Notes: generated by a model from the letters alone, not told the origin. A DNA stretch of 37,247 bases from an uncultured Desulfobulbaceae bacterium (GCA_945787445.1 CALZHT010000056.1:1-37247); one strand, 5' to 3'; positions 10,972 through 32,460 are shown, numbered from the stretch's first letter. Made by a program: numbers and translations.

Positions 10972-11541
10972 TTGGAAGACAGGGACAGGGATGTTATAAG
11001 ACAGGTCAAGAATGGCGACGCTGAGGCATTCTCCATCCTGGTTGAAAAATATCATTACCGACTCCTCAATTTTATCCACAAAATTGTCGGTGACCCTGAT
11101 GTGGTTGAAGACATCGGTCAGGAGGTTTTCCTGGCGGTATTTAAATCCCTGGCTCATTTTGAGGAAGACAGGGGCACGCCGTTTTCCGCCTGGCTTTTTA
11201 TAGCTGCCAGAAACCAGGCAATTAACGAGTTCAGAAAAAGACGGCATGAAAGAAGTATACCGGTTGAAGATTTGGATAAATTTACCGAATACCGAGAACA
11301 GGACACAAATCAGGTTTTCAAACGGGAAAAATGGCAGGCGATTGAGAAGTCTTTGGAACAACTGCCGCAGAAATACAGAGTGATAATACTCCAGAGTTTG
11401 CAGGGGAACAGCATTAAGGAAATAGCGCGGCACGAAGCGATTGCCCCGGGCACGGTCAAATCCAGACTTTTCAGGGCAAAAGAGCAAATAAGGCTGCTTA
11501 TTCAAAAACGATTCAGGAGCGGAGGACATGAAAGAATTTGA
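10972..11541 (+). CDS. ECF-family RNA polymerase sigma factor
   Basis: The 189-residue protein has the two-domain ECF layout. Region 2 spans about residues 8-90 (DAEAFSILVEKYHYRLLNFI, then DVVEDIGQEVFLAVFKSL and SAWLFIAARNQAINEFRKRR). Region 4 spans about residues 122-175 (LEQLPQKYRVIILQSLQGNSIKEIA and the recognition helix in APGTVKSRLFRAKEQI). It directs RNA polymerase to a stress or envelope regulon. The start is TTG, chosen because GGGG (about 10961-10964) lies at usual spacing and no upstream Met gives a longer homologous region. The last 14 bp overlap the next gene, typical of a sigma/partner pair. Confidence 0.95.
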   Translation: MEDRDRDVIRQVKNGDAEAFSILVEKYHYRLLNFIHKIVGDPDVVEDIGQEVFLAVFKSLAHFEEDRGTPFSAWLFIAARNQAINEFRKRRHERSIPVEDLDKFTEYREQDTNQVFKREKWQAIEKSLEQLPQKYRVIILQSLQGNSIKEIARHEAIAPGTVKSRLFRAKEQIRLLIQKRFRSGGHERI

Positions 11542-11743
11542 ACCTTCCCATGATTTTGTAGCAAAGGTAATGCAGCACATCCGGACCCAAACAAAAATAG
11601 AGCATTGGTTGCCTTATTCCGGGCGTGGTCCTTTTCATGGGCGCCTATGGCAGTATGCCATGTCCATCAGCACCATTTTTTTTGGCGTAATAAACATAAT
11701 CAGGCTGTACTTCGCTGTTTTTTCACCGGTTTTATGCCGCTAG
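11528..11743 (+). CDS. Small membrane protein overlapping the ECF sigma gene (possible anti-sigma)
   Basis: This 71-residue protein begins MKEFEPSHDFVAKVMQHIRT, a short cytoplasmic helix. It has a single hydrophobic segment of about 22 residues (roughly 43-65) and then a short tail. Its ATG overlaps the end of the sigma gene, and GGAGG lies just upstream (11521-11525, within the sigma coding end). The size and topology (short cytosolic N-terminus, one membrane helix) fit a minimal anti-sigma or sigma-associated membrane protein, as is common beside ECF genes. No zinc-binding HxxxCxxC motif is present, so this role is inferred from position only. Confidence 0.65.
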   Translation: MKEFEPSHDFVAKVMQHIRTQTKIEHWLPYSGRGPFHGRLWQYAMSISTIFFGVINIIRLYFAVFSPVLCR

Positions 11744-11792
11744 GCAAAAAACTGTAATGAAAAAAGGCGGAGTAGGTATCGGAGGCAAATAT

Positions 11793-12566
11793 ATGGAGCA
11801 GAACATGGACACGAAAAAACGATCGCTGATTGCTGCCGCAGCAGGCCTCAGCATGACCGGCATGGGGCAGATATACAATGGTGAACTCCTCAAAGGGCTC
11901 AGTTTTTACATAATCTTTATTGTACTGCCCTGCACGCTTTACAGAGTATCGATGTATTTGCCGGACAGATATATGTTTGCCGGAGTGGCAATTGGTGTGG
12001 CGACCTCGCTCGGCATCTATATCTTTGCAATAATTGAGGCATTGAAATATGCTAAAAAGGCCGGTACCGGCCGAGCGGCTAAGCCCTATAACCAATGGTA
12101 CTTTTATTTAGCGCTCTGGATGTCTGGTGCGGTGTTATTAATGACGGCTGACAATTATACCCGCCAGCATATGGTTGAGGCGTATAAAATTGTGACCAGC
12201 AGCATGGAGCCTGAAGTTTTACAGGGGGACCATGTGTTGGTGGATAAAACCGCCTATAACCGAATGGCCCCGAAGGTTGGCGACATTGTGATCCATGTCT
12301 TTCCGGACGACCGCAGCATGGTATATATTAGAAGGATTGCCGGAATGCCTGGTGATACAATTACCCTGGCGGATGGGAGTGAATACGGTGTGCCGCATGG
12401 CCATATCTATGTGTTGGGAGTAGAGAAAGAAAAAAGTCAAGACAGCAGATATTACGGCCCGGTGCCATTGTCGGACGTGCTTGGCAAAGCACGGCAGGTT
12501 TACTTTTCAACCGGTCCACAGGGAGTTCGTTGGGGAAGGATAGGTGCAACGATAAATCCTACCTAG
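11793..12566 (+). CDS. lepB: Signal peptidase I homologue with N-terminal membrane domain; Lys replaced by Arg
   Basis: The start at 11793 is chosen because GGAGG (11781-11785) stands 7 nt before it; an in-frame ATG at 11757 has no such site. The 257-residue product has an N-terminal membrane region (about residues 10-85) with GLSMTGMGQIYNGELLKGLS, a segment like that of small membrane proteins with a G-G-x-Y-x-G-x-x-K-G pattern. A further helix lies at about 101-118. The S26-type catalytic domain follows: SSMEPEVLQGDHVLVDK with the nucleophile S137, then YIRRIAGMPGD (179-187), and the box E DSRYYGPVP (217-225). In signal peptidase I the general base is the Lys of YIKR; here that position is R180. 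The enzyme may be inactive or altered. It follows the ECF pair and may be in the same transcript. Confidence 0.85.
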   Translation: MEQNMDTKKRSLIAAAAGLSMTGMGQIYNGELLKGLSFYIIFIVLPCTLYRVSMYLPDRYMFAGVAIGVATSLGIYIFAIIEALKYAKKAGTGRAAKPYNQWYFYLALWMSGAVLLMTADNYTRQHMVEAYKIVTSSMEPEVLQGDHVLVDKTAYNRMAPKVGDIVIHVFPDDRSMVYIRRIAGMPGDTITLADGSEYGVPHGHIYVLGVEKEKSQDSRYYGPVPLSDVLGKARQVYFSTGPQGVRWGRIGATINPT

Positions 12567-12597: not shown

Positions 12598-13730
12598 TCA
12601 TTGCATATCAATGCGTTCCTTTACCGTCCAGAAGCGAACTTTTAACAGATAGGGTTTCGCGGCAAAGACGGCCAAGGCTGCTGCAATAGCAATAAATCCG
12701 ATAATGCTCATATAATTATAAAATACATCCACACCAAATTCATCGGCCACATATCCTCCGATCGCTGTGGCCATTGAGCCCATTCCGAAAATAAGAAAGA
12801 AATTCACCCCGAAGCCTTTTCCATGGGAGGCCTTGCGGGTGTATTTGGCGATGAGGTAGTTCTGGGAAGGCTGCCAGGCATAATAGACAAGGCTGAATAG
12901 AGCACTGGCAATCAGTAAACCATAGTCAGTATACCTACTCATCAAATACAGCATGGGACTGACAATAATGAAAATGATAACCGGAAACACTTCAGGTTTC
13001 TTTATTTTATCGTTGATGTACCCGCCAAACCATGAGCTGAATAGGCCAAGCGACAGGATGGCTGGGGAATCGTTGCCGGCGGCGGCTCAGGTGATAAAGG
13101 AACTTCCTGAGGCAGCTGGACATGTTTGCCCTCCCCTTTCTCCCTGTCGAGGAATCCCAAGTGCCAGGAAAGATTGGATTCATGTTCGATCTCTGCAAAA
13201 TACATAATCAGAAAGAAAACAAGCCCCAGTACGCCATAAATGAGATAGGCAGCCCTCCAGGTATTAAAAAACAATACGCATAGGCCGGCAAACAGGGGTG
13301 AAAAGAAAAGCCCCACATTACCCATGACGCCGTGCAGACCGAGAGCTTTTCCTTTTTTTTCAATACGTCTGGCAATGAGAGATAACCCGGCCGGGTGATG
13401 GATGGATGCAAAAATACCGAGTAAGGCATAGGTCCCGGCAAAACCGGCAGTGCCAACCGAGAGCCCCACGAGAATCGAGGAAACCGCCATGCCCAAAACG
13501 CCAATGGTGAGTATTCTTTTTGAACCGTACTTGTCAGCAAGGTGTCCTGCCGGGAATGCCCCCAAACCGTAGAGAAAATAGCCGATATTGGCAATAATTC
13601 CCAAATCTAGAAAACTCATGGAATGCTCACTGATTATCACCACGAGCACTGCCGGTAAAAGGGTCATGTAACCGTGGGTTATAAAATGGGAAAAGCCTGT
13701 TAGCCAGGTGACTTTTTGTTCGGTATTCAT
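12598..13730 (-). pseudogene. MFS transporter broken by frameshift and likely internal deletion
   Basis: The N-terminal half (from an ATG at 13730 to about 13090) encodes six membrane helices of an MFS permease, including the loop 2-3 motif GHLADKYGSKR and a GIFASIHHPAGLSLIARR segment. It then enters a cytoplasmic loop (FLDREKGEGK). After about 13090 this frame becomes unrelated sequence and ends at 13002. The C-terminal half continues in another frame (from about 13080 down to 12598), with LSLGLFSSWFGGYINDKIKKPE, which is the helix 8 region, and then four more helices. An in-frame TGA just upstream in that frame places the junction within about 13068-13092. Helix 7 is not visible in any frame, so bases are missing as well as frame being lost. 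The ATG overlaps the beta-helix stop (TGATG). Confidence 0.85.
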
Positions 13731-14716
13731 CAATGTTTCCGCCAGGCCACAGGACTGTCACGGTAGGGAATATATGTGATCTCACCCAATTCTGGGTCGT
13801 CTTTTTTATCAAAAATCATTTCAGCAATTTTTTGTTCATTCAGGGAGCCGAACCAGTTGTTACTCGCATCAATGGGAAAATCCTGGGCCTCTGCTACAGC
13901 TATATTGTAATCCCGATTGTCGTATATGTTATTGTCATTCAGTTTCACTCCCCTGGCCTGATAAAGATAGATGCCTTTCTTGTTGTTGGTCACTTCGTTA
14001 TGGCTGATAAGCGCATCGGTGTTTTCTTTGGGCCATATACCAAAGAATTTATTATCCCGCACTTCATTGTGTTTGATAACCGCGTTAGAATTGCGGAAGC
14101 CTATACCCCCTTTGTTACCGGCAAAGAGATTGTTGGTGATCGTGAGGTTGGAACTCTTGCCGAACCAGGGCACTCCCGGGGTTTCTTCCTCTTTTTTAAA
14201 GCTGATGCCAACGCCGTTTTTAATGAATTCACTGTGCGACACCTGAGCAGAAGAACCATGGGCATGAATGCCGTTGTAAGCGCACAAAATTTTGGCATGC
14301 TCAATTACATTGCCCTCACTGCCCAGAAAATTAATGGCACCCCAATCGGCGGGCCGGGCATCCATCTCTGCCGAGGTGAATACCACTCTCTTCTTTTTCG
14401 TTCCTTTGGCAATGAGTTTTCCCCGAACAATGATTTCAGCCTGCGGATAGTAGGGAGAATCAATGTCAAAGAGGTTCTGGTCGCTTGTTTCGTCGATCCT
14501 TTTGAACTTGACCACTGTGCCAGGCAGCACGGTCAGGGTTACATTGGGCGGCACATAGACATCTCCGGTGACGAGGATATTCCCTTGCCAGGTGGTATCG
14601 TGTTCCAGAGTGGTTTTTCCTATTTCGATTGTTTTGGTTTTGGAGCAACCAGAGACAACAATGAAAATTATGAGAGAAAAAATATTAATCCAGACCAGTC
14701 TGATATTCAGGCGCAA
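13730..14716 (-). CDS. Beta-helix lipoprotein
   Basis: The 328-residue product has a lipobox ending in C24 (VSGC), so it is probably a lipid-anchored periplasmic or outer membrane protein. One module is present: HDTTWQGNILVTGDVYVPPN, then LTVLPGTVVKFKR, a GxLxAxGT turn (GKLIAKGTKKKRVVFTSAE), then right-handed beta-helix rungs rich in Asn and Gly (ITNNLFAGNKGGIGFRNSN and so on, about 170-270). It closes with NNWFGSLNEQKIAEMIFDKKDDPELGEITYIP. The same opening and closing signatures recur in the proteins at 17099-19567 and 22198-23124. The fold resembles NosD/CASH-type beta-helices, with no catalytic residues evident. The start is TTG at 14716, inside the upstream gene, chosen because AGAGGG lies a few bases ahead of it. 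Confidence 0.88.
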   Translation of the reverse strand: MRLNIRLVWINIFSLIIFIVVSGCSKTKTIEIGKTTLEHDTTWQGNILVTGDVYVPPNVTLTVLPGTVVKFKRIDETSDQNLFDIDSPYYPQAEIIVRGKLIAKGTKKKRVVFTSAEMDARPADWGAINFLGSEGNVIEHAKILCAYNGIHAHGSSAQVSHSEFIKNGVGISFKKEEETPGVPWFGKSSNLTITNNLFAGNKGGIGFRNSNAVIKHNEVRDNKFFGIWPKENTDALISHNEVTNNKKGIYLYQARGVKLNDNNIYDNRDYNIAVAEAQDFPIDASNNWFGSLNEQKIAEMIFDKKDDPELGEITYIPYRDSPVAWRKH

Positions 14717-15785
14717 TTCCGTACCCTCTTCTTCGATTTAACAAACCCACGGCAAAAAGCAGGCACAGTCCGACAAGCACTGCGATTTGTCCGGCTACCG
14801 GAGTTCCGGCCGGATTGCCGCCAATCCCCCAGTTTTGCACCAGGGCAGCACCAACCAACATTCCCATAACAGCGGCACCGGCATCGTTATCACCCTGCCC
14901 TGCAGCAACCAACTGCCGAAGGGGACATCCCCTGATCAATACAGAACCAAAACCAACCAGCATCATACCGAGAAACGCCCAGCCATAGCTTTCATTGGAG
15001 CTGGGTTGGCCATGCAGGCCAAAAGAAAACTGCCCGGTCAGGAGATTGGCGACAAAGGCAAAGCCAAGAAACGAAAATATGCTGACCAGCAAGCCGGTGG
15101 ATCTGGGACAATTCATGATCTCCCTTCCTCCCCATAAAAAAATACGGGCAATGCCTCCGGTTATACAAAATTGAGTGCGCTGGGCAAATGCACCGATGAT
15201 TAGGCCGATGGCAAGAGACAGAAGAAATGGGGCATGCTGGGCCGCTGCCCCCTTGGTGCTGTTGCCGACAAACCTGGGCTCGAGCAGGGCAATAACCAGC
15301 AGAAAAATCATAAATCCAGGCACAATAAAAGCATTGGCTTTTGGAGCTTCTTTTGGTTCGCCCAGGCGAAAACCGTTTTCGACAAATTCCAGGCCGATAT
15401 AGACACCTGCGATAAGGCCGATAAATCCGATAATGGCTGCAATATCCCCTGCGGCAAGACGCAAAATCAATTTTACCGGACAGCCGATAAAGACGGAACA
15501 GCCGACAATGAGCAACATGCCAACCATGAAGCGCAATAATGGTGAGCTGCCGCCGGTTGAGGCAAATTGTTTGCGGACCATTGCGAGACCGAATGATCCG
15601 AGAACGAAACCAATAATCTCGGGCCGTATATACTGCATGCGGATATTGTTGTGCAATCCGATGGCACCAGCGATATTTTCCAGAAAACAGGAAGCGCATA
15701 TACCGGTATTGGCGGGATTGCCATAGAGGGATAAAAATACCGATCCTACACCTATAATGGCACCCATGATGATGAAATAATGCAC
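14685..15785 (-). CDS. YedE-family putative selenium/sulfur compound transporter
   Basis: This 366-residue polytopic membrane protein belongs to the YeeE/YedE family and matches the form described for the selenium-associated YedE subgroup: GNPANTGICASCFLENIAGA near the N-terminus, RPEIIGFVLGSFG, GCSVFIGCPVKL, QRTQFCITGGIARI and RGCPLRQL. The conserved Cys residues in these half-helices are those thought to pass thiosulfate- or selenium-like ligands in YeeE relatives. The usual partner gene yedF (SirA-like) is not next to it. The start is GTG at 15785, decided by a full AGGAGGTG (15791-15798) five bases upstream. It overlaps the downstream beta-helix gene by 32 bp, so the two are probably translationally coupled. 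Confidence 0.88.
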   Translation of the reverse strand: MHYFIIMGAIIGVGSVFLSLYGNPANTGICASCFLENIAGAIGLHNNIRMQYIRPEIIGFVLGSFGLAMVRKQFASTGGSSPLLRFMVGMLLIVGCSVFIGCPVKLILRLAAGDIAAIIGFIGLIAGVYIGLEFVENGFRLGEPKEAPKANAFIVPGFMIFLLVIALLEPRFVGNSTKGAAAQHAPFLLSLAIGLIIGAFAQRTQFCITGGIARIFLWGGREIMNCPRSTGLLVSIFSFLGFAFVANLLTGQFSFGLHGQPSSNESYGWAFLGMMLVGFGSVLIRGCPLRQLVAAGQGDNDAGAAVMGMLVGAALVQNWGIGGNPAGTPVAGQIAVLVGLCLLFAVGLLNRRRGYGIAPEYQTGLD

Positions 15786-15803
15786 GAATACACCTCCTGC
15801 CTT

Positions 15804-16328
15804 TTACCCGCAGCTGCCGGCTATTTTTCTCAGCATATAATACAGGGTCTTTCTGTGTTGTCGTAATTGTTCATTGGCAGGGTCGCGTTCAAGACCTGAA
15901 AATATGGCTGTTTTTGCTTCCTGCATGGTTATTTTGATCTTTTTTCCTTGAAACAGCTTGGTTTTTTTATCAAGAAAATCAGGATTTAGATCAACTCCTT
16001 TTTTGTATTCCAACATTGCATCGATGGGCAGTTGTTTTCTCATGAAGAGGTCGCCCCGCAGTATATACGGCCTGCCGTCATAAGGAAAGCCGGCAATAAG
16101 GTCGTTGAGGAGCTTTTCAGAATCATCCAGGTTATTATTTTCAATAAGGTTTTTGGCTACCTTTACTTTTTGGTCAAACTCAGGATTTATAATCCGTACA
16201 GCCTCTCCTTTTTTTGCAGCCCATTCCTGTTCAGGCTCGGGATGCGTCACCTGGTGAACTATCAGAAAAACAGCAATGCAAGCAAGTATAACTATAAATG
16301 CCGCTGATATCGTATCAAGTCTGTCCAT
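15804..16328 (-). CDS. Membrane-anchored TPR protein
   Basis: The 174-residue protein has one N-terminal hydrophobic segment (about residues 8-25), leaving the rest probably in the periplasm. TPR-like helices follow: AKNLIENNNLDDSEKLLNDLI, then PYILRGDLFMRKQLPIDAML, then AMLEYKKGVDLNP. The C-terminus ends in RKIAGSCG, a Cys-Gly ending that is unusual for a TPR protein and may be a functional tail. It lies 66 bp after the regulatory-like-domain gene and 18 bp before the YedE-type gene, so it probably belongs to the same operon. TPRs usually scaffold protein complexes; the partner is unknown. Confidence 0.8.
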   Translation of the reverse strand: MDRLDTISAAFIVILACIAVFLIVHQVTHPEPEQEWAAKKGEAVRIINPEFDQKVKVAKNLIENNNLDDSEKLLNDLIAGFPYDGRPYILRGDLFMRKQLPIDAMLEYKKGVDLNPDFLDKKTKLFQGKKIKITMQEAKTAIFSGLERDPANEQLRQHRKTLYYMLRKIAGSCG

Positions 16329-16394
16329 ACCTGTTCTTTGCTAATCCTTTATAAATATAAAAAAATCATGAGAGTCACCCATGATTGTTTTTGT

Positions 16395-17102
16395 TCATTT
16401 TTTCTCCAACATAACAATTATATCCATTTCCTGCATGTCACCTTGCACGTCGATCCGATTCTTTAAAAAATAATCATTTTTCACCGGAAAAGTTAGTGCA
16501 GCCCCTAGAAAAAGAGTGCCACGCGGGACATATAAAATATACCTTCCCGTGTCATCTGTCCACCTAGACAAGTAGCGGGGTATGGTGCCCAGCTGTGGTT
16601 GTAAATGAGCCATAGCATATGCCATGGGTAGGGGTTGCCCATGTTTGTCCAGAATTTTTCCTGTAATTTTAAATAATTCTTCGCTTTTTTTATCGATTTG
16701 CCGGGCCGCTTCCCTGAGATCCATAACTGTAAAATTTCTCTCTGTTTCCTGGCCGGCCTTAACATTCATGGGGATAGGTTCACCTGAATGCTTGTCGCCT
16801 GTTATTAGTGGCCCGAATTTGGCGCCGCTTTTTCGAAAAACCCCCAACACCCAATATTTGCCTGGAGGTAAGACCAGAGTAAAAATACCATCAGCACCGG
16901 TCCTGTTTGAAATATAATCTGCCGGGCCCTTTACTTTATTGGAACGGTAGGCATACACTTCAGCTCCCTGAACTGCTTGTCCTTGGGTGTCCAGTATTCG
17001 TCCTTTCAGGGCAGCGGATTCCTTGCCATGTAAAGGGCTTATCCACCCAATAAAACAAGCAAGAGCGATGCAAAATATTCTCACAAAAAAGGAGTAATTC
17101 AC
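16395..17102 (-). CDS. Exported protein with carboxypeptidase-regulatory-like domains
   Basis: The 235-residue product begins with a Sec signal peptide (about residues 1-26, ending near LHG). Two beta-sandwich repeats of the carboxypeptidase-D regulatory-like type follow. The first is LKGRILDTQGQAVQGAEVYAY with GIFTLVLPPGKYWVLGV (about 32-90). The second is ITGKILDKHGQPLPMAYAMA with TGRYILYVPRGTLFLGAAL (about 145-205). Such domains serve as structural or ligand-binding sandwiches on cell surface proteins. The GTG start overlaps the beta-helix stop by 4 bp (GTGA), so translation is probably coupled. A related domain occurs in the proteins at 20842-22005 and, truncated, at 19593-19841. Confidence 0.85.
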   Translation of the reverse strand: MNYSFFVRIFCIALACFIGWISPLHGKESAALKGRILDTQGQAVQGAEVYAYRSNKVKGPADYISNRTGADGIFTLVLPPGKYWVLGVFRKSGAKFGPLITGDKHSGEPIPMNVKAGQETERNFTVMDLREAARQIDKKSEELFKITGKILDKHGQPLPMAYAMAHLQPQLGTIPRYLSRWTDDTGRYILYVPRGTLFLGAALTFPVKNDYFLKNRIDVQGDMQEMDIIVMLEKK

Positions 17103-19567
17103 TTTGAATCCCCACCAGCTAATTTCAGTTGCTTGTTAAGATAGGGCTCAAACATCACCTTACCTATATACTCTTCCTGATGGCCATCAAATATTGTCGG
17201 AAGAGGGGAAACACCTCCCCACCAGTTTCCCCTGGCGTCAACATCTTCCTTATTAAAATCGCCGAGGCGGATGCTATATCTTTCATTGGCAAATATATTG
17301 TTGCGGTTGATTGTCAGCCCGTCCCCTTGTTCCCGGACAAAGATGCCGATTTCATTTTTGGTGAAAATGGAGTCATGAATCCGGGCAGTGCCTCGAAAGG
17401 CCCTGAGTCCGATACGGTTATGAGAAAAAAGTGAATGACTAATCTCTAAAGGACCGCTTCTGAATCGAATTCCGCCGTCGTTTTGTCGGAACCGGCAATA
17501 GCTGATTGTCACATCGGAAAAATGGCTATGGATTCCCCAGGTGGCATACTCAAAGTCGCAATAAACAAAACGGCTTCCCGAAGCCCTGTCTAAAAGGATC
17601 TCCTCCCAATCAGAAGCGCCCTGTTGGTTCGTTGATGTAAATGTAATGCGTTTCTCTTTGGTGCCCTCAGCAAGTATCCGGCCATGGATGTCCATGCCGG
17701 CGTGGGGTGAAAAGAACAGGGTCGTCCCTGGCCTTATGGAAAGAACCGCATCAGGTAAAACTTCAACATGATCGGCGATGCGCATTGAACCGCTCCAGGA
17801 AACGTCGGTATTGATCGTGGGCAGAGACCAGGCGACAGGAACAGGGCCTTTACTTTGCGGTTCATAGATCACTTTTCCCAGGGACTGATCGTCATGCCGG
17901 TCGAAAAGTTCCTTGTCAAGGTCGGAGTCTCCCCACCAGTTTATGGCAGCGTCAATGTCGCTTTTTTCATCATCCAGACCAATCGCATAGAGGCCGTTAT
18001 CCATTATATTGTTTTGGGTGATGCGGCCGCTGAATCCTATTATTCCAAGCCCTCTCTCACCATTTTCCGAAATCAGATTTCCGGTGATCATGGATCTCGC
18101 GTTATTCAGGTTGATGCCGTTTAAGCCGTTGGCTTGTATAATGTTATGCTGTATTTCAATATTATCGGTGTCTCTGAAAGAGGCCCCGCCTTCGAGATTT
18201 TGTGATATTATATTTCCGGCAACTTTTCCAAATACCGCGTCAGCCATGATGAGACCGAATCTGTTGCCGGTCATTACATTCTTTTCCACAACAGTGGCGC
18301 CTTCGCGAATCCGCAGACCATCCCCTCGGTTGCGCATAAAATAATTGTTGGCAGCCTTGAGATTAAGCCGAAAAAAACTGGCGCCATGTCCATTGTTCAC
18401 CATGCGATTGCCATGGAAGACGACTTCTGAGTCTCTCGCCTGGATGCCGCTTATGTTATCGAAAAAATCACTTGATCTGATTTCCACCAGCGATTCCTGA
18501 AATTGGGCGCCTCTGTAATTGTTTCGCAAAATGGCATGATTGACGCCAATATTTGAAAAATGAAAATGCAAACCGCGGTAAGCATCTTCAACCTGACAAA
18601 ACTCTATGAGGTTTTGGGCTGCGTCGCTGCCCAATATATTGATCGCATCCCAATCACCCCGTTTTCTCTGCGTCTCTGCAGACCTGAAGAGTATTGGTTG
18701 CGACGGTGTTCCCTTTGCAATGAACATACCCTGGATCATAAGGCCGTTTTCGCCTATTCCATCGCCATTAGTATCTTTTTTAGAAAACTCAACAATGGTT
18801 CCCGGATAAATAACCAGGCGCCCTTCCAGCGGAATGCGAACCTGTCCTTTAATGAGGACCCTGCCCTTCCAAACTGTTTCACCGGGAAGGGATTCATCAC
18901 CGTATACCTTGGTAAGGTCTGCTGCAGTAAATGTAAAGGGGGCCGGAGTAGGTAGATTGTTTGCTGCAGATGATTCAAAAATGTCTTTTCTGGAATTCCT
19001 AGCTATTTCGCTTTGTTGCCTGGTAATGTCTGCCCCATTAAACAGAAAAACCCCGTATTCGTTTTTTTGAATAGCGACAGTATCAAGGGAGACTTTACCG
19101 TGTTTCCCCTGAACGATCATGCCATAGCGGTTATCAGTAATCCTTGAATGGGTAAGCTCGAGACTGCCGCCTATCACGTGAAAAGCTGCTTCAGCGCCCT
19201 CTACCGTACAATAGCGGCTTTTTACCTTGCCACCATCTATCACAATTCCCGCCCAACGCTCTCCCTTGTTTTCTCCGCCAAGTTGGAATGTGGCCAGACC
19301 TTTACTATTGCCGTCTATTTGCAGCGTACCTCGTACGGTAATTTCAGTCCGGTGCGATATAAATTCCGGATCGATTTTTGTGCTTTGGGATGGCCAGACC
19401 CGGACAACAGTGTGGGGTGATATGGTGAGGGTGACTCCCGCAGGAACTAGGATATCCTCTTTCATATCTACTTCCCCCTGCCAGACAGTATCATTGGTGA
19501 GAACCTCGGCAATGGACTGGCACGGGATTAAAAGCAAAACAAGGAATGTCAAAAAAATAAGTGGCAT
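17099..19567 (-). CDS. Large exported three-module beta-helix protein
   Basis: The 822-residue protein has a signal peptide (about residues 1-20, ending QSIA). Three modules follow, each opening with a W-x-G segment: NDTVWQGEVDMKEDILVPAG (about 25), GETVWKGRVLIKGQVRIP (about 228) and NTDVSWSGSMRIADHV (about 580). Each then has LxIxPGTxxxF, a GxxxAxGTxxxPIxF turn and Asn/Gly-rich right-handed beta-helix rungs. Modules two and three end with INWWGDSDLDKELFDRHDDQ and GNWWGGVSPLPTIFDGHQ signatures, each leading to GKVxxEP. The second module has a D-x-N-x-D-G-I-G loop that could bind calcium. The neighbours share these modules, so an extracytoplasmic assembly is plausible. No lyase or hydrolase catalytic site is evident. 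Confidence 0.9.
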   Translation of the reverse strand: MPLIFLTFLVLLLIPCQSIAEVLTNDTVWQGEVDMKEDILVPAGVTLTISPHTVVRVWPSQSTKIDPEFISHRTEITVRGTLQIDGNSKGLATFQLGGENKGERWAGIVIDGGKVKSRYCTVEGAEAAFHVIGGSLELTHSRITDNRYGMIVQGKHGKVSLDTVAIQKNEYGVFLFNGADITRQQSEIARNSRKDIFESSAANNLPTPAPFTFTAADLTKVYGDESLPGETVWKGRVLIKGQVRIPLEGRLVIYPGTIVEFSKKDTNGDGIGENGLMIQGMFIAKGTPSQPILFRSAETQRKRGDWDAINILGSDAAQNLIEFCQVEDAYRGLHFHFSNIGVNHAILRNNYRGAQFQESLVEIRSSDFFDNISGIQARDSEVVFHGNRMVNNGHGASFFRLNLKAANNYFMRNRGDGLRIREGATVVEKNVMTGNRFGLIMADAVFGKVAGNIISQNLEGGASFRDTDNIEIQHNIIQANGLNGINLNNARSMITGNLISENGERGLGIIGFSGRITQNNIMDNGLYAIGLDDEKSDIDAAINWWGDSDLDKELFDRHDDQSLGKVIYEPQSKGPVPVAWSLPTINTDVSWSGSMRIADHVEVLPDAVLSIRPGTTLFFSPHAGMDIHGRILAEGTKEKRITFTSTNQQGASDWEEILLDRASGSRFVYCDFEYATWGIHSHFSDVTISYCRFRQNDGGIRFRSGPLEISHSLFSHNRIGLRAFRGTARIHDSIFTKNEIGIFVREQGDGLTINRNNIFANERYSIRLGDFNKEDVDARGNWWGGVSPLPTIFDGHQEEYIGKVMFEPYLNKQLKLAGGDSK

Positions 19568-19592
19568 GAGTTACAAACAAAATTACATAAAA

Positions 19593-19841
19593 TTACAAAG
19601 AATAACCGGGTTTTATGAATCGGGTGTTCACTGGGAAGGGAGGCGGATTATTAATATTTTTTTTAAAAAAAGATACAATGCCGCTGAAGGGATGTTTTTC
19701 AGGCCCAACCATTATTTTACCGGTAACAATTCCATTAATACTCATTCTTCCCGTACTTTTTGCTGCCAAACAATCGGTTGCAAAAAATATGTTGCATATG
19801 ATCGGGATACAGAAACGGAGTAACATCACTGTGGACCTCAT
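19593..19841 (-). CDS. Truncated exported protein, remnant of a regulatory-like-domain gene
   Basis: From an ATG at 19841 the frame encodes 82 residues with a convincing signal peptide (MRSTVMLLRFCIPIICNIFF, then ATDCLAA). A start of a beta-sandwich follows: MSINGIVTGKIMVGPEKHPF, SGIVSFFKKNINNPPPFP. This resembles the first strands of carboxypeptidase-regulatory-like exported proteins, but the frame stops before a complete domain. It lies 25 bp before the 822-residue beta-helix gene, in the same direction, at the head of the minus-strand series. It may be a gene shortened by a frameshift or deletion, or a real small exported protein. An in-frame Met at 19922 would add 27 residues without a signal-peptide-like start. 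Confidence 0.5.
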   Translation of the reverse strand: MRSTVMLLRFCIPIICNIFFATDCLAAKSTGRMSINGIVTGKIMVGPEKHPFSGIVSFFKKNINNPPPFPVNTRFIKPGYSL

Positions 19842-20291
19842 GAATCTACTTGTTATGAACCATTTGTAATTATTGAAAAATTTAATAAAAAGGGGTATTA
19901 TAATTGATGAAATCATAAACAAAAGCGTTTTTATGATGTATTGTTCTACATGCTATTGAATCCACATACCACATGAACAATTTTCTCGATTTTTTGCGAG
20001 CGTATCATTATTGAATAAGATAATTTACATGTATTGCTATAATACTATGGAATGTATAAAAAAACCACAAATTCAAATTACCAATTCATAGAGAACAAAC
20101 AATGGAAAATACTTACAAATAGTAAGAATGCTTCCTCAAGAGGGATACGACCGTTGATAGTGCACCGGCGCAGCAGAGAGGATGGTATACACCATCTGGA
20201 TAAAAGTATTTACTTCCTGACCTTTACAACCCTCTCCTCAGCTTCTCCAACAAGACTTTTCCGGCCTATTTAGTGACTTTTTAGGATTTGC
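19842..20291. other. Divergent intergenic region between the two gene series
   Basis: These 450 A/T-rich bases separate the minus-strand series from the plus-strand one and probably carry both promoters. A TATAAT on the minus strand (19897-19902) has only a poor -35 partner. A plus-strand extended -10 is listed separately. A 73-codon open frame (20052-20273) shows no domain or coding-like composition. Confidence 0.5.
20035..20043 (+). promoter_or_regulatory. Candidate extended -10 promoter
   Basis: TG at 20035-20036, one base and then TATAAT at 20038-20043 make a perfect extended -10 element. No -35 at 17 bp is convincing. It would leave a leader of about 240 nt before the JAMM-domain gene at 20292, so its link to that gene is uncertain. 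Confidence 0.35.
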
Positions 20292-20849
20292 ATGGAATTT
20301 GAGCCAGACTCCGATATAAAAATTATTCTTCCCCAAAAGGAATACCAAGCGATCATCGACCATTGCCGCAATAATCTGCCTGGAACCAATAGTCGAAAGG
20401 AATTTAGGGCAAAAAAGGCATTCGGCCTCCTTGCCGGGGAAAAAGCAGGAAATACTATAACCGTTAAATACTGCTTTCCTTTGGATAAAAATGCCCGTTT
20501 TAATGAATCGTATAAAAATTTCATGGATAAAATAATGGCTGAACATGCCATTCCATCTGAAACACCTTTTGCCAAGAGAGGTTGGGTGGCCGATCCAGAG
20601 GAATTGCATGAAAAGATTGTGCAGTGCCATAATATGGACCTCACCATGATTGGCACCTACCATATGCACAGGGTGGCTTGGAAACACGATTCCCTGCGGG
20701 ACACTCCAACAGAATTGGATGTCATCTTGGCAAAGAAGAGCCGCATGCTCATGTTCATAGTGTCAATGGTTGATCCTGAAAAGCCGATCATCCGTGCTTT
20801 TTATGAAGGAATACTCGATTTTGAAGTGCCGATTGTTTTTAATGATTGA
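20292..20849 (+). CDS. JAMM/MPN-domain protein (putative metal-dependent isopeptidase-like)
   Basis: The 185-residue protein fits the JAB/MPN fold. It has a central FGLLAGEKAGNTITVKYCFPL strand pair and then the zinc motif H124-x-H126-x7-S134-x2-D137, an exact match to the JAMM consensus HxHx7SxxD. In JAMM enzymes a Glu just before the GLL segment is the general base. Here that position (42, three residues before the Gly) is Lys, and E37 or E50 are the nearest acidic residues, so activity is uncertain. Bacterial JAMM proteins often process sulfur-carrier or ubiquitin-like tails; no such carrier is seen nearby. No signal peptide is present. The stop overlaps the next start (ATGATTGA). Confidence 0.75.
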   Translation: MEFEPDSDIKIILPQKEYQAIIDHCRNNLPGTNSRKEFRAKKAFGLLAGEKAGNTITVKYCFPLDKNARFNESYKNFMDKIMAEHAIPSETPFAKRGWVADPEELHEKIVQCHNMDLTMIGTYHMHRVAWKHDSLRDTPTELDVILAKKSRMLMFIVSMVDPEKPIIRAFYEGILDFEVPIVFND

Positions 20850-22005
20850 CTTCCACATGCTGAAAAAAATTCTTTTGATCTTTATCTGGAGCTGTTTTTT
20901 TATAGATCCATGTATTGCAGGTATTGTTGACGGCATTGTGCTTTCAGAAAAAGGCCCCCTGCCCGAAGCAGTTGTTCTGGCATATCCTGATTATGATTCG
21001 TTTGCTGCTGACAAAAAAGCAATAGGTTCACAACCTCTTGAAAAGCCTGGCCAGTTCCACATGGAACTCCCGCCGGGCGAATATTTTTTTGTCGCTAAAG
21101 GCCGGCAAAACGGTCAGGACTTTTTTTCGTACCATGGGCTCAATCCGATATCCATCTCAGACTCATACAAATGGCTGCCGTTTTTTGCGCTTGAAGCAGA
21201 TCAAATCCTTTGCTCCGATGGCCCTCAGGGAATAGGGGGGCAGGTATTCTATAAAGATGAATCCTTGGACAGCGGTGTGGTATCGGTTTATGATGCCCAA
21301 GAGATGCGGTTTCGGGGCATGGGCTTATTAACCAGTTCACTTGATGAACAGGGCCGCTTCTGGTTCGATCTGGACCCCGGAACATACGTGTTTATTGCCA
21401 GAAAGCGTCAAGACGGCGCTGGAATAGGACCTGTCCGGAAAGGTGATCTGTTTTGCTATCATTCGACAAACCCCGTTGATATAGACACTGCTCAATCGTG
21501 CCGGATCACTATTTCATGTTATCCCAGGGACAATATCGAAGCATTTCTAATGCCTGAAGCCGACGATCCCCGTGGGAGAAGACAAGAAACGAGAAGGAGT
21601 GCCTCACACTGGAATACCGAAGCTCTTGAAGCTGCAAACGGACCTCCCCCAGATGGCATGCCATTGGGTACAATAATTTCCGGAAAAGTAACAGACGTCA
21701 ATGGAGAGCCGGTAAAAAGTATTTTTGTGACAGCGTACCCTGGTGACAACTTCCCTCTTTTTCAAATGCATATTATTCGACAGAAGACCGGATCTATGGC
21801 CCTAACCGACGATGCCGGACAATTCAGGCTGGAGCTTGACAACGGCGGCCTGTATTACCTTGTCGCCCGTGAAAAAGTCGGAGAAGCGCCGGTGCGTTTT
21901 GAACAATATGGCCTGTATGAAGGCAACGTCAACCACTCCATCAAACTTGAAACCGGTATGCAGGTGACTGATGTCCATATACGTGTTGAGCCGATAATGC
22001 CGTAA
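20842..22005 (+). CDS. Exported protein with repeated carboxypeptidase-regulatory-like domains
   Basis: The start at 20842 overlaps the JAMM gene stop by 8 bp; an in-frame ATG at 20857 is an alternative. From 20842 the protein has 387 residues. A signal peptide ends near DPCIAG. Three regulatory-like sandwiches are suggested: GIVDGIVLSEKGPLPEAVVL with GQFHMELPPGEYFFVAKG; GIGGQVFYKDESLDSGVVSV with GRFWFDLDPGTYVFIARK; and IISGKVTDVNGEPVKSIFVT with GQFRLELDNGGLYYLVAR. Each has the pattern G-x-F/R-x-L/F-x-L-x-x-G-x-Y. These are surface or periplasmic structural domains. The tight overlap with the JAMM gene suggests a functional pair. Confidence 0.85.
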   Translation: MIDFHMLKKILLIFIWSCFFIDPCIAGIVDGIVLSEKGPLPEAVVLAYPDYDSFAADKKAIGSQPLEKPGQFHMELPPGEYFFVAKGRQNGQDFFSYHGLNPISISDSYKWLPFFALEADQILCSDGPQGIGGQVFYKDESLDSGVVSVYDAQEMRFRGMGLLTSSLDEQGRFWFDLDPGTYVFIARKRQDGAGIGPVRKGDLFCYHSTNPVDIDTAQSCRITISCYPRDNIEAFLMPEADDPRGRRQETRRSASHWNTEALEAANGPPPDGMPLGTIISGKVTDVNGEPVKSIFVTAYPGDNFPLFQMHIIRQKTGSMALTDDAGQFRLELDNGGLYYLVAREKVGEAPVRFEQYGLYEGNVNHSIKLETGMQVTDVHIRVEPIMP

Positions 22006-22109
22006 ATGTTGTTATTATAGTATATTATGACTTAGCGCAAAACATAATTACCATCATTTCTTAGCTACCTAAACGATACGGAGCATAACCTGTTGATTTT
22101 TGCTATGTC

Positions 22110-22179
22110 TGTCATTTCGAACAAACGCGAGAAATTTTTTCCCGGGGCAATAAGATTTCTCGCTGTGCTCGAAATGACA
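22110..22179. repeat. Dispersed palindromic repeat
   Basis: Ends tgtcatttcga (22110-22120) and tcgaaatgaca (22169-22179) are perfect inverted copies. Internal arms gcgagaaat (22127-22135) and atttctcgc (22155-22163) pair as well, with an asymmetric A/C-rich gap. The element sits just upstream of the beta-helix lipoprotein start, and an open frame through it (from 22093) reads into that gene. The long in-frame extension is therefore repeat sequence rather than protein. Confidence 0.7.
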
Positions 22180-22197
22180 AGGGATTATAAAATCCCA

Positions 22198-23124
22198 ATG
22201 AAAACATTCATTAACTACATCTTCATATTGCAATCAATTTACCTTCTGATGGCGTGTTCCGTTCAGTCCCCGCACCTGGGCGGCCAAGAACTGCTAGTGA
22301 ATGACCAGGTTATTGCCAATGATACAATTTGGCAGGGCGATGTTTTTGTTCAGGGAGTTGTGCTGGTAAGCCGTGAAGCGACATTATCAATAAAACCAGG
22401 CACCTTTATCCGTTTTAAAAAAGATGACCGCAATGGCGACGGAATCGGAGATGCTGAAATTCGGGTGCTTGGGCGTCTGCTGGCATTAGGAACTGAAGAT
22501 AAACCCATCCGTTTTGAATCTGCTGAAAAAATACCGGCACCAAAAGATTGGTCCTATGTGCTGATCTTTTCATCCGGTAAAAAATCAACCCTTCAATACT
22601 GTGAATTCCGGCATGCCTTTTCAGGCCTACAGGTGCATTTTTCCACCGCCAAGCTGTTTGATTCACTTTTTATTAATAATTACGAAGGGATACGCTTTGG
22701 CCGTGCCCAACTGCAAATATCCCATAACACGTTTACCGATAATGATACTGCAATCCGGTTTACCAGGATGGAGGGGCCGGTCACCATAAACAACAATGAA
22801 ATAAGCGGCAACAGGCAGGGCATTTTCCTTGTCCCATCGGGCCAGAACATTACTGATTTTTTTGAACCGGACCGCAGTGGCCGCCCTTGGAACACGGGGA
22901 GGCTGCAGATTTTTTCCAATAACATTTACAATAACAGGGACTACAATCTGAATCTTGGTGAAAAACAATTCTGGAACCTGGATGTGACCAATAACTGGTG
23001 GGGTTCATTAACTGAAAGCAGCATTGAAGAAAAGATATTTGACCGAAAGAATGATGGCGCACTTGGCAAAGCGCTTTACCACCCATTTTCCAAAAGTTCT
23101 ATAAAAGAAGCTGGCGTGCGGTAA
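22198..23124 (+). CDS. Beta-helix lipoprotein
   Basis: The ATG at 22198 gives 308 residues with a lipobox at L17-M-A-C20. It has one module of the same kind as in the minus-strand series: NDTIWQGDVFVQGVVLVSRE, LSIKPGTFIRFKKDDRNGDG with a D-x-N-x-D-G-I-G loop, then GRLLALGTEDKPIRFESAEK. Asn-rich beta-helix rungs follow (about 140-260), and the end is NNWWGSLTESSIEEKIFDRK with GALGKALYHPF. It is anchored by lipid, probably facing the periplasm. An upstream in-frame start (22093) runs through a palindromic repeat and is rejected. The dehydrogenase gene follows after 9 bp, so the two are probably co-transcribed. Confidence 0.88.
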   Translation: MKTFINYIFILQSIYLLMACSVQSPHLGGQELLVNDQVIANDTIWQGDVFVQGVVLVSREATLSIKPGTFIRFKKDDRNGDGIGDAEIRVLGRLLALGTEDKPIRFESAEKIPAPKDWSYVLIFSSGKKSTLQYCEFRHAFSGLQVHFSTAKLFDSLFINNYEGIRFGRAQLQISHNTFTDNDTAIRFTRMEGPVTINNNEISGNRQGIFLVPSGQNITDFFEPDRSGRPWNTGRLQIFSNNIYNNRDYNLNLGEKQFWNLDVTNNWWGSLTESSIEEKIFDRKNDGALGKALYHPFSKSSIKEAGVR

Positions 23125-23133
23125 ATAATTTTC

Positions 23134-24312
23134 ATGATGGCACCGAACAACAACAGACCTGCGCAAATAATTGAATACACCGACCCTCTTGAAGGATTCA
23201 AGGGCTGGCTGGTGATCGATTCCCTTGATCATCGGATCTGCGCCGGGGGAATGCGGGTACAACCAGGCTTGACTGCTGACCAACTCATTAAAATGGCATC
23301 CAACATGAATCTTAAGATGAGGATAGCCGGACTCAGACTTGGCGGCGCAAAAAGTGGTATCGATTACGACCCTTCCTCTCCAGGCAAACATGCGGCAATG
23401 GCACGATTTCTAAAAGAGATCAAACCATATATCGAAACTGTTTATTCCATGGGACCTGATCTCAATGTGGATATGGTTGAACTGGAAAACACGGCAAAAT
23501 CGGTCGGTATTCCCTCCGTCAAAATGGCTGTGGCGCAAGCGCAAGGCATGGATCTCCCCTATTTTCTTGAAAGGCTCGCCATCCTTGAGCACCAGATTGG
23601 CGGCTGGACCCTGGGCAGCCTGAGAGCAGGTTATGGAGTGGCCATAGCAGCCTTGGCCGTGTTGCATTATCTCAAGAAATCGCCGGATAAGGCAACCATC
23701 GTGATCCAGGGATTCGGAACTCTGGCACGGGCTGCAGCCCTGACCCTTCATCAAGAAGGCGCCCGGATAATTGCCTTTGCTGATGCAGAAAAGACCTTGG
23801 TCACCAGGAAACCGGAAGGATTTGACCTTGATGCTCTCCTGCAAAATCCAGGACCATTGTTGCCACAAAATATTTCGGGTAACTCGGTAACCACTCTTGA
23901 CAAAGAGGCAATCACTGAAGTTGGAGGGGATATTCTGATCCCTGTTGCCATTGAAGGCGCTATCAATTCGGCCAATGCAGGAGCGCTCCAAGTACAAGCA
24001 ATTGTTCCGGGAGCAAACCTGGCAATCACCCCTGCAGCGAGCCAGGATCTTCATAAACGGGGGATTCTGGTCCTGCCTGATTTTTTGGCAGGCTGCGGAG
24101 GATCCCTTTCCATGGATGGGCTTTTCGGTCCTCCACATCACCCCCGACCGGAAGAGGTTTTGACGCACATCAGAAGTTGTATGGAAAATCTTGTTCAGCA
24201 GACCCTGATCCGTTCATCGCAAGAGAAAATATCTCCCACCCAAGCTGCTCTTCACATATGCAGCACGAGAAAACCTATTCCTGAAACCAAGCCTTATGGA
24301 CCCCTCGATTAA
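23134..24312 (+). CDS. Glu/Leu/Phe/Val dehydrogenase family protein
   Basis: The 392-residue protein is a member of the amino acid dehydrogenase family that interconverts an amino acid and its 2-oxo acid with NAD(P). K61 and the GGAKSGI segment with K73 (residues 70-76) are the substrate-binding and catalytic lysines. The acidic residue D109 (GPDLNVD) is at the catalytic Asp position. The Rossmann nucleotide loop is IQGFGTLARAA (191-201). GGxxxG-type residues near LAGCGGSLS are also typical. The substrate is not identifiable by eye; the leucine- versus glutamate-type is open. It sits 9 bp after the beta-helix lipoprotein and about 166 bp before two lyase genes, an odd setting for an amino acid dehydrogenase. 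Confidence 0.88.
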   Translation: MMAPNNNRPAQIIEYTDPLEGFKGWLVIDSLDHRICAGGMRVQPGLTADQLIKMASNMNLKMRIAGLRLGGAKSGIDYDPSSPGKHAAMARFLKEIKPYIETVYSMGPDLNVDMVELENTAKSVGIPSVKMAVAQAQGMDLPYFLERLAILEHQIGGWTLGSLRAGYGVAIAALAVLHYLKKSPDKATIVIQGFGTLARAAALTLHQEGARIIAFADAEKTLVTRKPEGFDLDALLQNPGPLLPQNISGNSVTTLDKEAITEVGGDILIPVAIEGAINSANAGALQVQAIVPGANLAITPAASQDLHKRGILVLPDFLAGCGGSLSMDGLFGPPHHPRPEEVLTHIRSCMENLVQQTLIRSSQEKISPTQAALHICSTRKPIPETKPYGPLD

Positions 24313-24478
24313 AGGTAATGCCCACCTGATCCTAATTTCTTTCGTTTTTTCCTCTCTTTAATAAGGAAATTTTTTATTGTTTTTGGTATATTATCGTAGT
24401 ATTTGAACACGATCAGGAAGTATTTTTTTCGCGACTTGCTGTGGTGAATATCAATAATAACGAAAAAAGCAGATAACC

Positions 24479-25858
24479 ATGCCCTCGCATCCTCTTGATT
24501 TCCAAATACAGACCAATATATTCGCAACACCTGAGCTTCTTTCCGTATTTGACGAAAAAAAAAGATTCCAGCGCTGGCTAGATATAGAAGCCGCCCTCGC
24601 GCAAACGCAAGGCGAACTCGGGATTATTCCCCGTGATGCCGCATCTGAAATTGCCGCTAAGGCGTCTCTTGAGCATATCGATTTGTCTTATGTTCATCAG
24701 GAATATCAACTCAGCCGCAATTCTCTGGTGCCATTACTGAAAGGACTCAGAAAGGCATGCGGCAAAGTTCATGGTGAATTCGTCCACTATGGCGCCACCA
24801 CTCAGGACATCCTGGACACCGCCCAGATCCTGGAACTGAAAGAAACTTTCGCAATACTCTACCGGGATCTGCGAAATCTTGAGCACTATTTACTCGAAAT
24901 AACCGAATGCCACCAAAACACACCCATGATTGCCAGGACCCATGGGCAACAGGCATTACCAATTACCTTTGGCCTTAAAACCGCAGTCTGGCTTTCCGAG
25001 ACGAGACGACATATTGAACGGATCAAACAGCTCTATCCGCGCATACTGACGGGTCAATTGAGCGGAGCTGTGGGGACAATGGCAGCTTTCGGTCCGAAAG
25101 CCCTGGCTGTCGTGGAACAAACCTTGACCAGGCTCGGCCTCAAGCATTCGCCGGCCAGCTGGCACACATCCCGTGATACTATTGCGGAAACCGCTGCTTT
25201 TTTTTCCATCCTTTCCGGAACACTAGAAAAAATTGCGAATGAAATTTTTCAGCTGGGGAAAAACGAAATCAGCGAGCTCCATGAACCCCTCCCATCCAAG
25301 GCAATAAGCAGCAGCACCATGCCCCACAAAAGGAATCCTGTACTTTGCCAGCGCATCTCTGTTCTTGCCAGGCATGCCCGATCCCTTACCTCCGTTGTTT
25401 TTGACAGTATGGTGCATGAACATGAACGTGATGCCCGTGCCTTATGGTCCGAATGGCTGGCCATGCCGCAGATCGCCATATACACTGCCACAGCGCTTTC
25501 CTTCCTTACCAATATCATGGGAGGCCTTGAGGTTAACCTTGAAAAGATGAAGGAAAATCTCTATCTGCAAAAGGAGATGGTTATTTCCGAGTGGCTTCTA
25601 TTTCACATGTCACAAAAGATTGGCAAGATGCGGGCCCAGGAAAAAATTCATACCCTCCTGCAACTAGCAACTGCAAAAAACATATCCTTGAAAGAAATCC
25701 TTGCTGGTGATCAGGAGGTAGGCCCTTTGTTCGGCAAGGACGCACTTGAAATGTTTGACCATCCTGAACGGTATATTGGCAATTCCATTGAAATTATCAC
25801 AGCAGTCCTGCACGAAGTAACAACCAAACGTCAGAATGATCCCGAGGTGTTAGTGTAA
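24479..25858 (+). CDS. Fumarase/aspartase superfamily lyase, PcaB/PurB-like (first of tandem pair)
   Basis: The 459-residue protein is related to adenylosuccinate lyase and 3-carboxymuconate cycloisomerase. TTQD is at residues 107-110, THGQQALP begins at 154, and the signature SSSTMPHKRNP lies at 277-287, so the catalytic His and Ser regions are present. The N-terminal FQRWLDIEAALAQTQGELGIIP is the PcaB/PurB-type start. It shares little with the purB at 5532 outside the motifs, so it is not simply a second purB. Such enzymes eliminate or add fumarate-like groups at amines or carbons; the substrate here is unknown. Its stop overlaps the start of the next lyase by 1 bp. Confidence 0.88.
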   Translation: MPSHPLDFQIQTNIFATPELLSVFDEKKRFQRWLDIEAALAQTQGELGIIPRDAASEIAAKASLEHIDLSYVHQEYQLSRNSLVPLLKGLRKACGKVHGEFVHYGATTQDILDTAQILELKETFAILYRDLRNLEHYLLEITECHQNTPMIARTHGQQALPITFGLKTAVWLSETRRHIERIKQLYPRILTGQLSGAVGTMAAFGPKALAVVEQTLTRLGLKHSPASWHTSRDTIAETAAFFSILSGTLEKIANEIFQLGKNEISELHEPLPSKAISSSTMPHKRNPVLCQRISVLARHARSLTSVVFDSMVHEHERDARALWSEWLAMPQIAIYTATALSFLTNIMGGLEVNLEKMKENLYLQKEMVISEWLLFHMSQKIGKMRAQEKIHTLLQLATAKNISLKEILAGDQEVGPLFGKDALEMFDHPERYIGNSIEIITAVLHEVTTKRQNDPEVLV

Positions 25859-27312: not shown

Positions 27313-27315
27313 CCC

Positions 27316-28116: not shown

Positions 28117-28143
28117 TATCAAATCCGGAACCAAACCAAACCA

Positions 28144-28172
28144 TTGCGTGTCAATTAATTACAGGGTATAAT
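28144..28172 (+). promoter_or_regulatory. Candidate sigma70-type promoter
   Basis: TATAAT at 28167-28172 is preceded by TTGCGT at 28144-28149 with 17 bp between. The -10 is perfect and the -35 matches only in the first three bases. A transcript would begin near 28180, giving a leader of about 70 nt before the first binding-protein gene. Confidence 0.45.
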
Positions 28173-28252
28173 TGCAAACTCCAATTGTATGGTCAATACT
28201 TCTTAACGGACAATATATAATCAACAATAAAATCAATACAGAGGGTAAAGTA

Positions 28253-28858: not shown

Positions 28859-28867
28859 ACCCTTTTT

Positions 28868-29428: not shown

Positions 29429-29441
29429 CTTGAGATCATAG

Positions 29442-32042: not shown

Positions 32043-32460
32043 CTATGGACAACTTACGGGTGATATGACCGTTGCCCCGGAAGGTATGGCACCGGAGATT
32101 GATCCGCTGCTGGTGGTGATATAGAAGCCATCAAGCTCAAGGCCGTTTTCCCGGGCCCATATATTGATGGTATACACACCGATGTTGTTGATGGTGATTC
32201 GTGTTGGGTTCGGACCGGCATTATGTGGCGTTCTCGTCCAGTTCCAACTGGTATTGGATGCCGGCGTGGTGGCATTACCGACCATGGAGCTGTCAAGCCC
32301 GTACCACAGTGAGTTGTCGCCACTGTTACCACCATCCTTTCCTCTGAACCAGATATAATAGGTGCCGGTCTGGGTAAAGTTCAGGTCGTATTGTGCAGAG
32401 GAACCGGAGATGGAACCGGTGCTGTTGGCAACTTCACAACCTCCGCCACTTGGTGGAGGA
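32043..32460 (-). other. C-terminal carbohydrate-binding-like domain and Gly/Pro linker
   Basis: The last 140 or so residues of the cytochrome hold no heme motif. A poly-Gly/poly-Pro linker sits just above this segment (about 32440-32500). The domain starts CEVANSTGSISGSSAQYDLN and has GTYYIWFRGKDGGNSGDNSL and INIWARENGLELDGFYIT, a pattern seen in beta-sandwich modules at the C-termini of polysaccharide-active or cell surface proteins. It could tether the cytochrome to extracellular polymer. Confidence 0.6.

Follow-up and report, generated by a model that had tools for sequence, protein, structure and literature searches.

What does a locus do that places three exported beta-helix proteins among CarboxypepD_reg proteins, a TPR-like protein and a YedE-family transporter on two strands? 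The question was raised by a 37,247-nt stretch of DNA from an uncultured Desulfobulbaceae bacterium (GCA_945787445.1, CALZHT010000056.1:1-37247), analysed at its full length and called the window here. The locus is one version of an undescribed conserved system, in which genes for enzymes resembling cofactor makers, for a sulfur/selenium importer and for a nickel-type exporter adjoin those of exported beta-helix proteins and giant multihaem cytochromes. Its probable role is to make or supply a component containing sulfur and metal for surface proteins that carry electrons. Tentatively, it may be a two-part system, in which sulfur-ligand synthesis in the cytosol would be joined to periplasmic assembly and delivery to exported redox proteins. 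The first-pass annotation had drawn the limits of the locus at 13730–23124; the gene set it grouped proved to be real, but those limits were too narrow, since the conserved set covers 12598–30338 together with a cytochrome gene at 32043–37247.

Gene content of the two divergent operons

The locus consisted of two divergent operons, one on the minus strand (12598–19567) and one on the plus strand (20292–30338). The minus-strand operon encodes BH822, CpD235, TPR174, YedE, BH328 and an MFS transporter. BH822 (17099–19567) is an exported three-module beta-helix protein with HxH pairs at 334/336 and 680/682 and a Ca-type loop (D265-x-N-x-D). CpD235 (16395–17102) is exported and carries two CarboxypepD_reg domains (Pfam PF13620, 1.6e-10), and TPR174 (15804–16328; weak TPR_14 match) is a membrane-anchored TPR-like protein with a conserved C-terminus ending in AGSCG. 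The YedE-family sulfur/selenium transporter (14685–15785) has six conserved Cys and passed the TIGR04112 cut-off (382 bits against 200); transport of selenium or sulfur is its predicted activity. BH328 (13730–14716) is an exported beta-helix lipoprotein with a conserved C24, one module and invariant H151/H153, and it matched the Pfam Beta_helix and NosD families. The MFS transporter gene (12598–13733; Pfam MFS_1) is split by one frameshift into 12598–12990 and 13002–13733, which may represent an assembly error or decay; in other genomes its homologues are intact proteins of ~430 aa that adjoin BH328. Just upstream of the system, on the plus strand at 10972–12566, an ECF sigma factor gene is followed by that of an S26-type signal peptidase.

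The plus-strand operon begins with a JAMM/MPN-fold protein (20292–20849), whose fold matched PfJAMM1 (5ld9_B) with Z 15.9 and rmsd 2.0 over 124 aa. Alignments including 2kks and a canonical JAMM sequence revealed that the zinc motif HxH...[S/T]xxD of JAMM/MPN metallopeptidases is kept, with H124, H126, T140 and D143 invariant, while the catalytic Glu upstream of GLLxG is replaced by Lys42 in 16 of 16 sequences. D137 was rejected as the third ligand, as the alignment with 2kks led to T140/D143. CpD411 (20857–22005; Pfam 2.2e-10) is an exported CarboxypepD_reg protein whose ORF opens at 20770, with 20857 as the likely start. It is followed by BH343 (22198–23124; the mechanical ORF begins at 22093), an exported one-module beta-helix lipoprotein (Pfam Beta_helix) that has QxH rather than HxH. 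The next gene codes for a Glu/Leu-type amino-acid dehydrogenase (23134–24312; Pfam 8.7e-30), which forms its own subfamily, retains the catalytic-type Lys and had 2tmg as its best PDB match (1.4e-32). Two lyases of the aspartase/fumarase superfamily, LyaA (24479–25858; Pfam 5.8e-42) and LyaB (25858–27312; family profiles), share 38% identity, and both keep the superfamily catalytic loop (SSTMPHKRNP and STTMPHKRNP, respectively). Among their best-scoring models was XcbD (NF052536), named as a C–S-forming enzyme, which they matched over its full length with 430 and 451 bits, below the cut-off of 600. Together with their gene neighbours in other bacteria (see below), these front-end enzymes suggest sulfur chemistry on a small molecule.

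The remaining plus-strand genes encode transport and exported proteins. The RcnA-like Ni/Co exporter NicO (27316–28116) passed the broader Pfam NicO cut-off (4.3e-22; 79 against 27.7) and stayed below the RcnA-type model PRK10019 (NF007454; 162 bits, cut-off 195). A short, exported OpuAC-like binding protein (28172–28858; profile match) has an invariant Cys near its mature N-terminus, and TPR186 (28868–29428; profile match) is an exported TPR protein. The PhnD-like lipoprotein (29442–30338; Pfam 3.2e-36), a binding protein encoded without an ABC partner, has Cys37 and Cys225 invariant across 23 aligned rows. Beyond the operon, a giant multihaem cytochrome gene on the minus strand (32043–37247) contains 59 CxxCH motifs and runs off the contig end. 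The first-pass reading of the central genes held at the level of gene structure: the ORFs of all three beta-helix proteins were present, the gene overlaps of 4–32 bp were recovered (4 bp at 13730/13733 and 17099/17102, 32 bp at 14685/14716), and the interleaved genes were as described, namely YedE by TIGR04112, a TPR-like protein and two CarboxypepD_reg proteins by Pfam.

Neither ThiF nor ThiS, nor any ThiS-like small gene ending in GG, was found in the window's cluster. Outside the phylum, JAMM/dehydrogenase/lyase mini-clusters include genes for ThiF-rhodanese, ThiS-family proteins with a GG terminus, a protein of the NifS type, ArsP_1 permeases or FmdE, in Marinobacter, Anaerosacchariphilus, Streptomyces, Rhodospira and a gammaproteobacterium. 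The FmdE gene of Streptomyces gossypii (L111:10585-11286) overlaps the JAMM gene by 4 bp and is preceded by a gene run with ligase- and reductase-like frames, named by eye.

Conservation and a second version of the system

Among 57 same-order relatives, presumably Desulfobulbales, BH822 and the JAMM protein were both present in 18, the beta-helix protein alone in two, the JAMM protein alone in none and neither in 37 (p 6e-13, a value that ignores shared ancestry). Neighbourhoods in the relatives hold the set together in varying gene order; the two operons touch or form one run in several genomes (six loci) and sit on separate contigs in others. Two genomes contain the back end without the JAMM gene. 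There is good support for the earlier view of an exported machine that is dedicated and conserved, and the idea that the set is not conserved in any relative is refuted, the set being present in 20 of the 57. A surface layer in its pure form, also put forward at first pass, overlooks the cytosolic half, that is, the JAMM-fold protein, the amino-acid dehydrogenase, the two aspartase/fumarase-type lyases and the transporters.

Full-length BH822 orthologues with 48–51% identity were also found in other operons of the phylum sample. The set varies by genome and includes CpD235, OpuAC-like, ResB-like, NicO or ArsP_1, TPR186, BH328, PqqD, radical SAM, SPASM, PhnD-like, TPR174 and YedE proteins, in which TPR186 is accompanied by NicO and BH328; the PqqD, radical SAM and SPASM proteins score above the GeoRSP family cut-offs (TIGR04302–04304). 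The back end shared with the GeoRSP genes consists of YedE, the C-terminal-Cys TPR protein, the PhnD-like binding protein and NosD/AlgG-fold beta-helices. A search of the phylum with TIGR04303 placed 20 of 395 above the cut-off of 400 bits and 26 when orthologues just below it were counted, matches of at least 379 bits being taken as orthologues and the next match scoring 193. A beta-helix, YedE, PhnD or ArsP_1 gene lies near the radical SAM gene at 24 of these 26 loci. GeoRSP and the beta-helix protein occurred together in 25 of 394 phylum genomes from 11 families, each alone in one, and neither in 367 (p 3e-37, again ignoring shared ancestry). This almost complete association with the exported back end of beta-helices and YedE gives context to the orphan GeoRSP radical-SAM system; a "Geobacter-like" label for this second type would come from the GeoRSP name only.

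The two front ends exclude each other. The GeoRSP radical SAM protein (TIGR04303) was found in 0 of 22 order-type genomes, the window's own and 21 others, and the JAMM protein in none of 27 genomes of the GeoRSP type, one partial match of 27 bits aside. Since the YedE tree has a single split between the types (97/91), this exclusion counts as one replacement rather than as many independent events. The place of GeoRSP is taken here by a second set of enzymes that is unrelated to it. ArsP_1 and FmdE each adjoin both front ends, and sulfur genes (ThiF with rhodanese, ThiS, NifS-type and cysteine-desulfurase-type) adjoin either. GeoRSP loci contain a class-V, cysteine-desulfurase-type gene (seven loci), ArsP_1 or FmdE, and the GeoRSP-type mini-sets at two of the seven show no nickel gene. 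At a further locus (L165), a back end of YedE, PhnD, ResB, OpuAC and beta-helices occurs without GeoRSP or JAMM; a possible third front end there consists of neighbouring DUF362-like and U32-peptidase-like genes, which were named by eye.

The PqqD and PqqE-like radical SAM/SPASM set of GeoRSP invites the alternative that the front-end product is an organic redox cofactor similar to PQQ or mycofactocin and serves exported electron-transfer proteins, peptide-derived in GeoRSP and amino-acid-derived through the dehydrogenase and lyases here, with the nickel and YedE genes as mere helpers. The amino-acid dehydrogenase and lyases would suit amino-acid-derived chemistry, and giant cytochromes adjoin. 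However, the YedE, sulfur-carrier, desulfurase, NicO and NikR genes would be left unexplained and a precursor peptide was not found; we consider this alternative rather unlikely.

Giant cytochrome genes adjoin the JAMM gene in five relatives, lying divergent to it, and adjoin BH822 in one GeoRSP-type genome. Among the most haem-rich frames seen here is that at L078:8645-19000, which is truncated and has at least 3452 aa and 98 CxxCH. Paralogous copies of the exported unit were also observed in one relative (L054), where two extra BH822-like genes occur with OpuAC, CpD235, PhnD and a cytochrome. The cytochrome domain PF14537 was rejected as a carrier marker, being present in most genomes, carriers and non-carriers alike. 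These neighbourhoods could also mean that the enzymes supply a covalent modification that matures giant cytochromes or other surface proteins, with the CpD and beta-helix proteins as chaperone or structural components of a conduit for electrons outside the cell, a reading consistent with the ResB-like protein of GeoRSP-type operons and with the CpD–beta-helix fusions. It is nevertheless unlikely: many order genomes with cytochrome domains lack the system, and it would leave YedE and the two solitary binding proteins unexplained.

Transport partners and beta-helix proteins

The back-end features described here would suit extracytoplasmic handling of metal and sulfur, but no single metal marker is universal. 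Conserved His are present in NicO of both types, and the GeoRSP-type versions contain a long His-rich loop; the gene is missing from several loci (the f6 genomes and G050). NikR adjoins the operon at only one of the loci examined, and no NikR-type box (GTGTTAC-N14-GTAACAC) was found in the window. TPR174 adjoins YedE in both types, and every TPR174 recovered has a Cys near its C-terminus (AGSCG or AGGCG in the order, LAGGCE in GeoRSP-type genomes). Scanning of the window proteins gave no ABC importer partner, ABC ATPase or permease, N2O reductase or metal-resistance enzyme. A system that takes up, senses or detoxifies a soft metal, or a metal(loid) bound to thiol, with a lyase-made thiol as chelator, would draw on the ArsP_1, NicO and MFS exporters, the two invariant Cys of the PhnD-like protein and the thiol-type chemistry that the neighbouring genes suggest; against it stand the missing importer and resistance enzymes and an exported beta-helix/CpD set whose size and strong conservation fit resistance poorly, which makes it improbable.

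The five beta-helix modules in the three proteins are mutually related, as the first-pass annotation had held, and all align pairwise. E values among BH328, BH343 and modules 2 and 3 of BH822 ranged from 1e-44 to 5e-29, with the exception of modules 2 and 3 against each other (3e-18), and module 1 aligned more weakly (1e-10 to 5e-5). The reported motifs were recovered in part. The closing signature NW[W/F]G...FD...G[K/E]...P is present in four of the five modules, but the exact DxxDD in only two of those four; BH822 module 3 opens with VSWSG rather than with TxWxG. The D-x-N-x-D-G loop occurs in two modules as described, BH343 and BH822 module 2, and in the latter it is invariant in 19 of 19 orthologues. 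The HxH pair is invariant in BH822 (19/19) and BH328 (17/17) across both system types, and CpD411–BH343 fusions were likewise found in both. The BH822 sequence had no match among solved structures, and folds were compared instead: in the predicted structure (pLDDT 90.8), module 2 matched AlgG with Z 34.0 and NosD of NosDFY (7o0y_A) with Z 31.6 and rmsd 2.9 over 310 aa. Unlinked to the system, a 2748-aa frame with NosD-type beta-helix matches was seen elsewhere in one genome (G000:C81:528-2405). AlgG and PL6 lyases are the top fold matches, but that the beta-helices are carbohydrate enzymes of this kind in a sheath or surface layer is very improbable, as DPHD, the catalytic motif of AlgG-type mannuronan epimerases, is absent from all three, no polysaccharide-enzyme family scored above its cut-off in profile scans, no glycosyltransferase or polysaccharide export gene was among the scanned window proteins, and the association is with sulfur/metal genes; the ordinary polysaccharide enzymes that the first-pass annotation had named as counting against its proposal did not appear.

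Proposed function and comparison with known systems

For the two-part system, gene content, linkage, co-occurrence, the exclusion of front ends, folds and conserved motifs are observed, and from these we infer a product, a metal, a direction of transport and a target as follows. The cytosolic enzymes, namely the JAMM-fold protein, the amino-acid dehydrogenase and both lyases, would make a small sulfur-containing ligand, probably a thiol or thio-acid, which would take its sulfur from a ThiF/ThiS-type carrier of the kind that other bacteria encode next to these enzymes. Export of the ligand would be via the MFS (or ArsP_1) permease, and a divalent metal, most likely nickel, would exit through the RcnA-like NicO protein, while YedE and the C-terminal-Cys TPR protein would act at the membrane on sulfur or selenium. 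Once in the periplasm, the product may be assembled by the two Cys-bearing binding proteins (PhnD-like and OpuAC-like) together with the HxH beta-helix/CpD proteins, the ligand being joined, probably with nickel, on the beta-helix scaffolds. Delivery would be to large exported redox proteins, giant multihaem cytochromes in particular, much as NosD serves a Cu–S centre. In other Desulfobacterota, the GeoRSP radical-SAM/PqqD genes would replace the cytosolic module. In favour of this reading are the linked set in relatives, the back end shared with GeoRSP, the exclusion of front ends, the sulfur genes beside either front end together with YedE and the XcbD match, the NicO, NikR, ArsP_1 and FmdE genes, the AlgG/NosD fold, the HxH pairs, the conserved Cys of the PhnD-like and TPR proteins, the CpD411–BH343 fusions and the neighbouring giant cytochromes. 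Against it speak the loci that lack NicO, the single NikR neighbour, the two mini-sets with no nickel gene, the absence of ThiF and ThiS from the window's cluster, the loss of the catalytic Glu in the JAMM-fold protein, the two genomes with a back end but no JAMM gene, the single tree split behind the exclusion, and counts of cytochrome domains, which fail to separate carriers from non-carriers. A more specific form is improbable: the locus would make a new exported organic nickel–sulfur cofactor, a dithiolene-like or thio-acid complex, and install it in the surface electron conduits of bacteria of the Desulfobulbales type, and other Desulfobacterota would reach an identical or analogous product through the radical SAM chemistry of GeoRSP. 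The inferred product of the two-part system, if it exists, would represent a new kind of exported cofactor associated with multihaem cytochromes, bearing on extracellular electron wiring in Desulfobacterota and on the origin of biological metal–sulfur conductors.

Judged by its sequences, the system is not NosD, GeoRSP or coenzyme M synthesis. In the open-access literature searched, no description of the gene set, of GeoRSP or of its TIGRFAM numbers was found, in line with the first-pass suggestion of an undescribed system. Its putative novelty is based on this and on its failure to pass the membership tests, while each of the folds is familiar when taken singly. The protein-thiocarboxylate sulfur transfer with JAMM peptidases, such as CysO/CysM/Mec+, shares the JAMM fold and has a parallel in the ThiF/ThiS neighbours outside the phylum; in contrast, the catalytic Glu is replaced by Lys here and no carrier gene was found in the cluster. 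Bacterial coenzyme M synthesis (XcbC/XcbD) uses lyases of the same superfamily, with a full-length XcbD match, whereas the XcbD cut-off is missed, no XcbB/XcbE-like genes were seen in the locus, and the window has two lyases with a dehydrogenase and a JAMM protein. The comparison with NosD drawn at first pass survives as one of fold, the periplasmic right-handed beta-helix being shared with BH822 module 2, but not as membership: the best window score against TIGR04247 was 34.3 of 300 bits (BH328), NosF, NosY, NosL and NosZ are missing from the window, and the window has several beta-helices, which feature HxH, Ca-type loops and partners of the CpD kind. For the Cu–S centre of N2O reductase, sulfide is proposed to come from NosDFY, and Cu is carried by NosL (PMC6530538). 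GeoRSP (named in NCBIfam) has the exported/transport back end in common with the window system, whereas the order genomes have JAMM, dehydrogenase and lyases instead of its radical SAM protein. In the cable-bacteria literature searched, there was no overlap with these genes except for NicO-type transport in general, and no record of Electrothrix or Electronema came up in the genome scan. Export of Ni by rcnA-type proteins has been discussed for the nickel bis(dithiolene) (NiBiD) fibres of cable bacteria (PMC12093952). The likeness to those fibres would be one of analogy only, and it lies in related bacteria of the Desulfobulbaceae, in nickel and sulfur, and in exported conduction.
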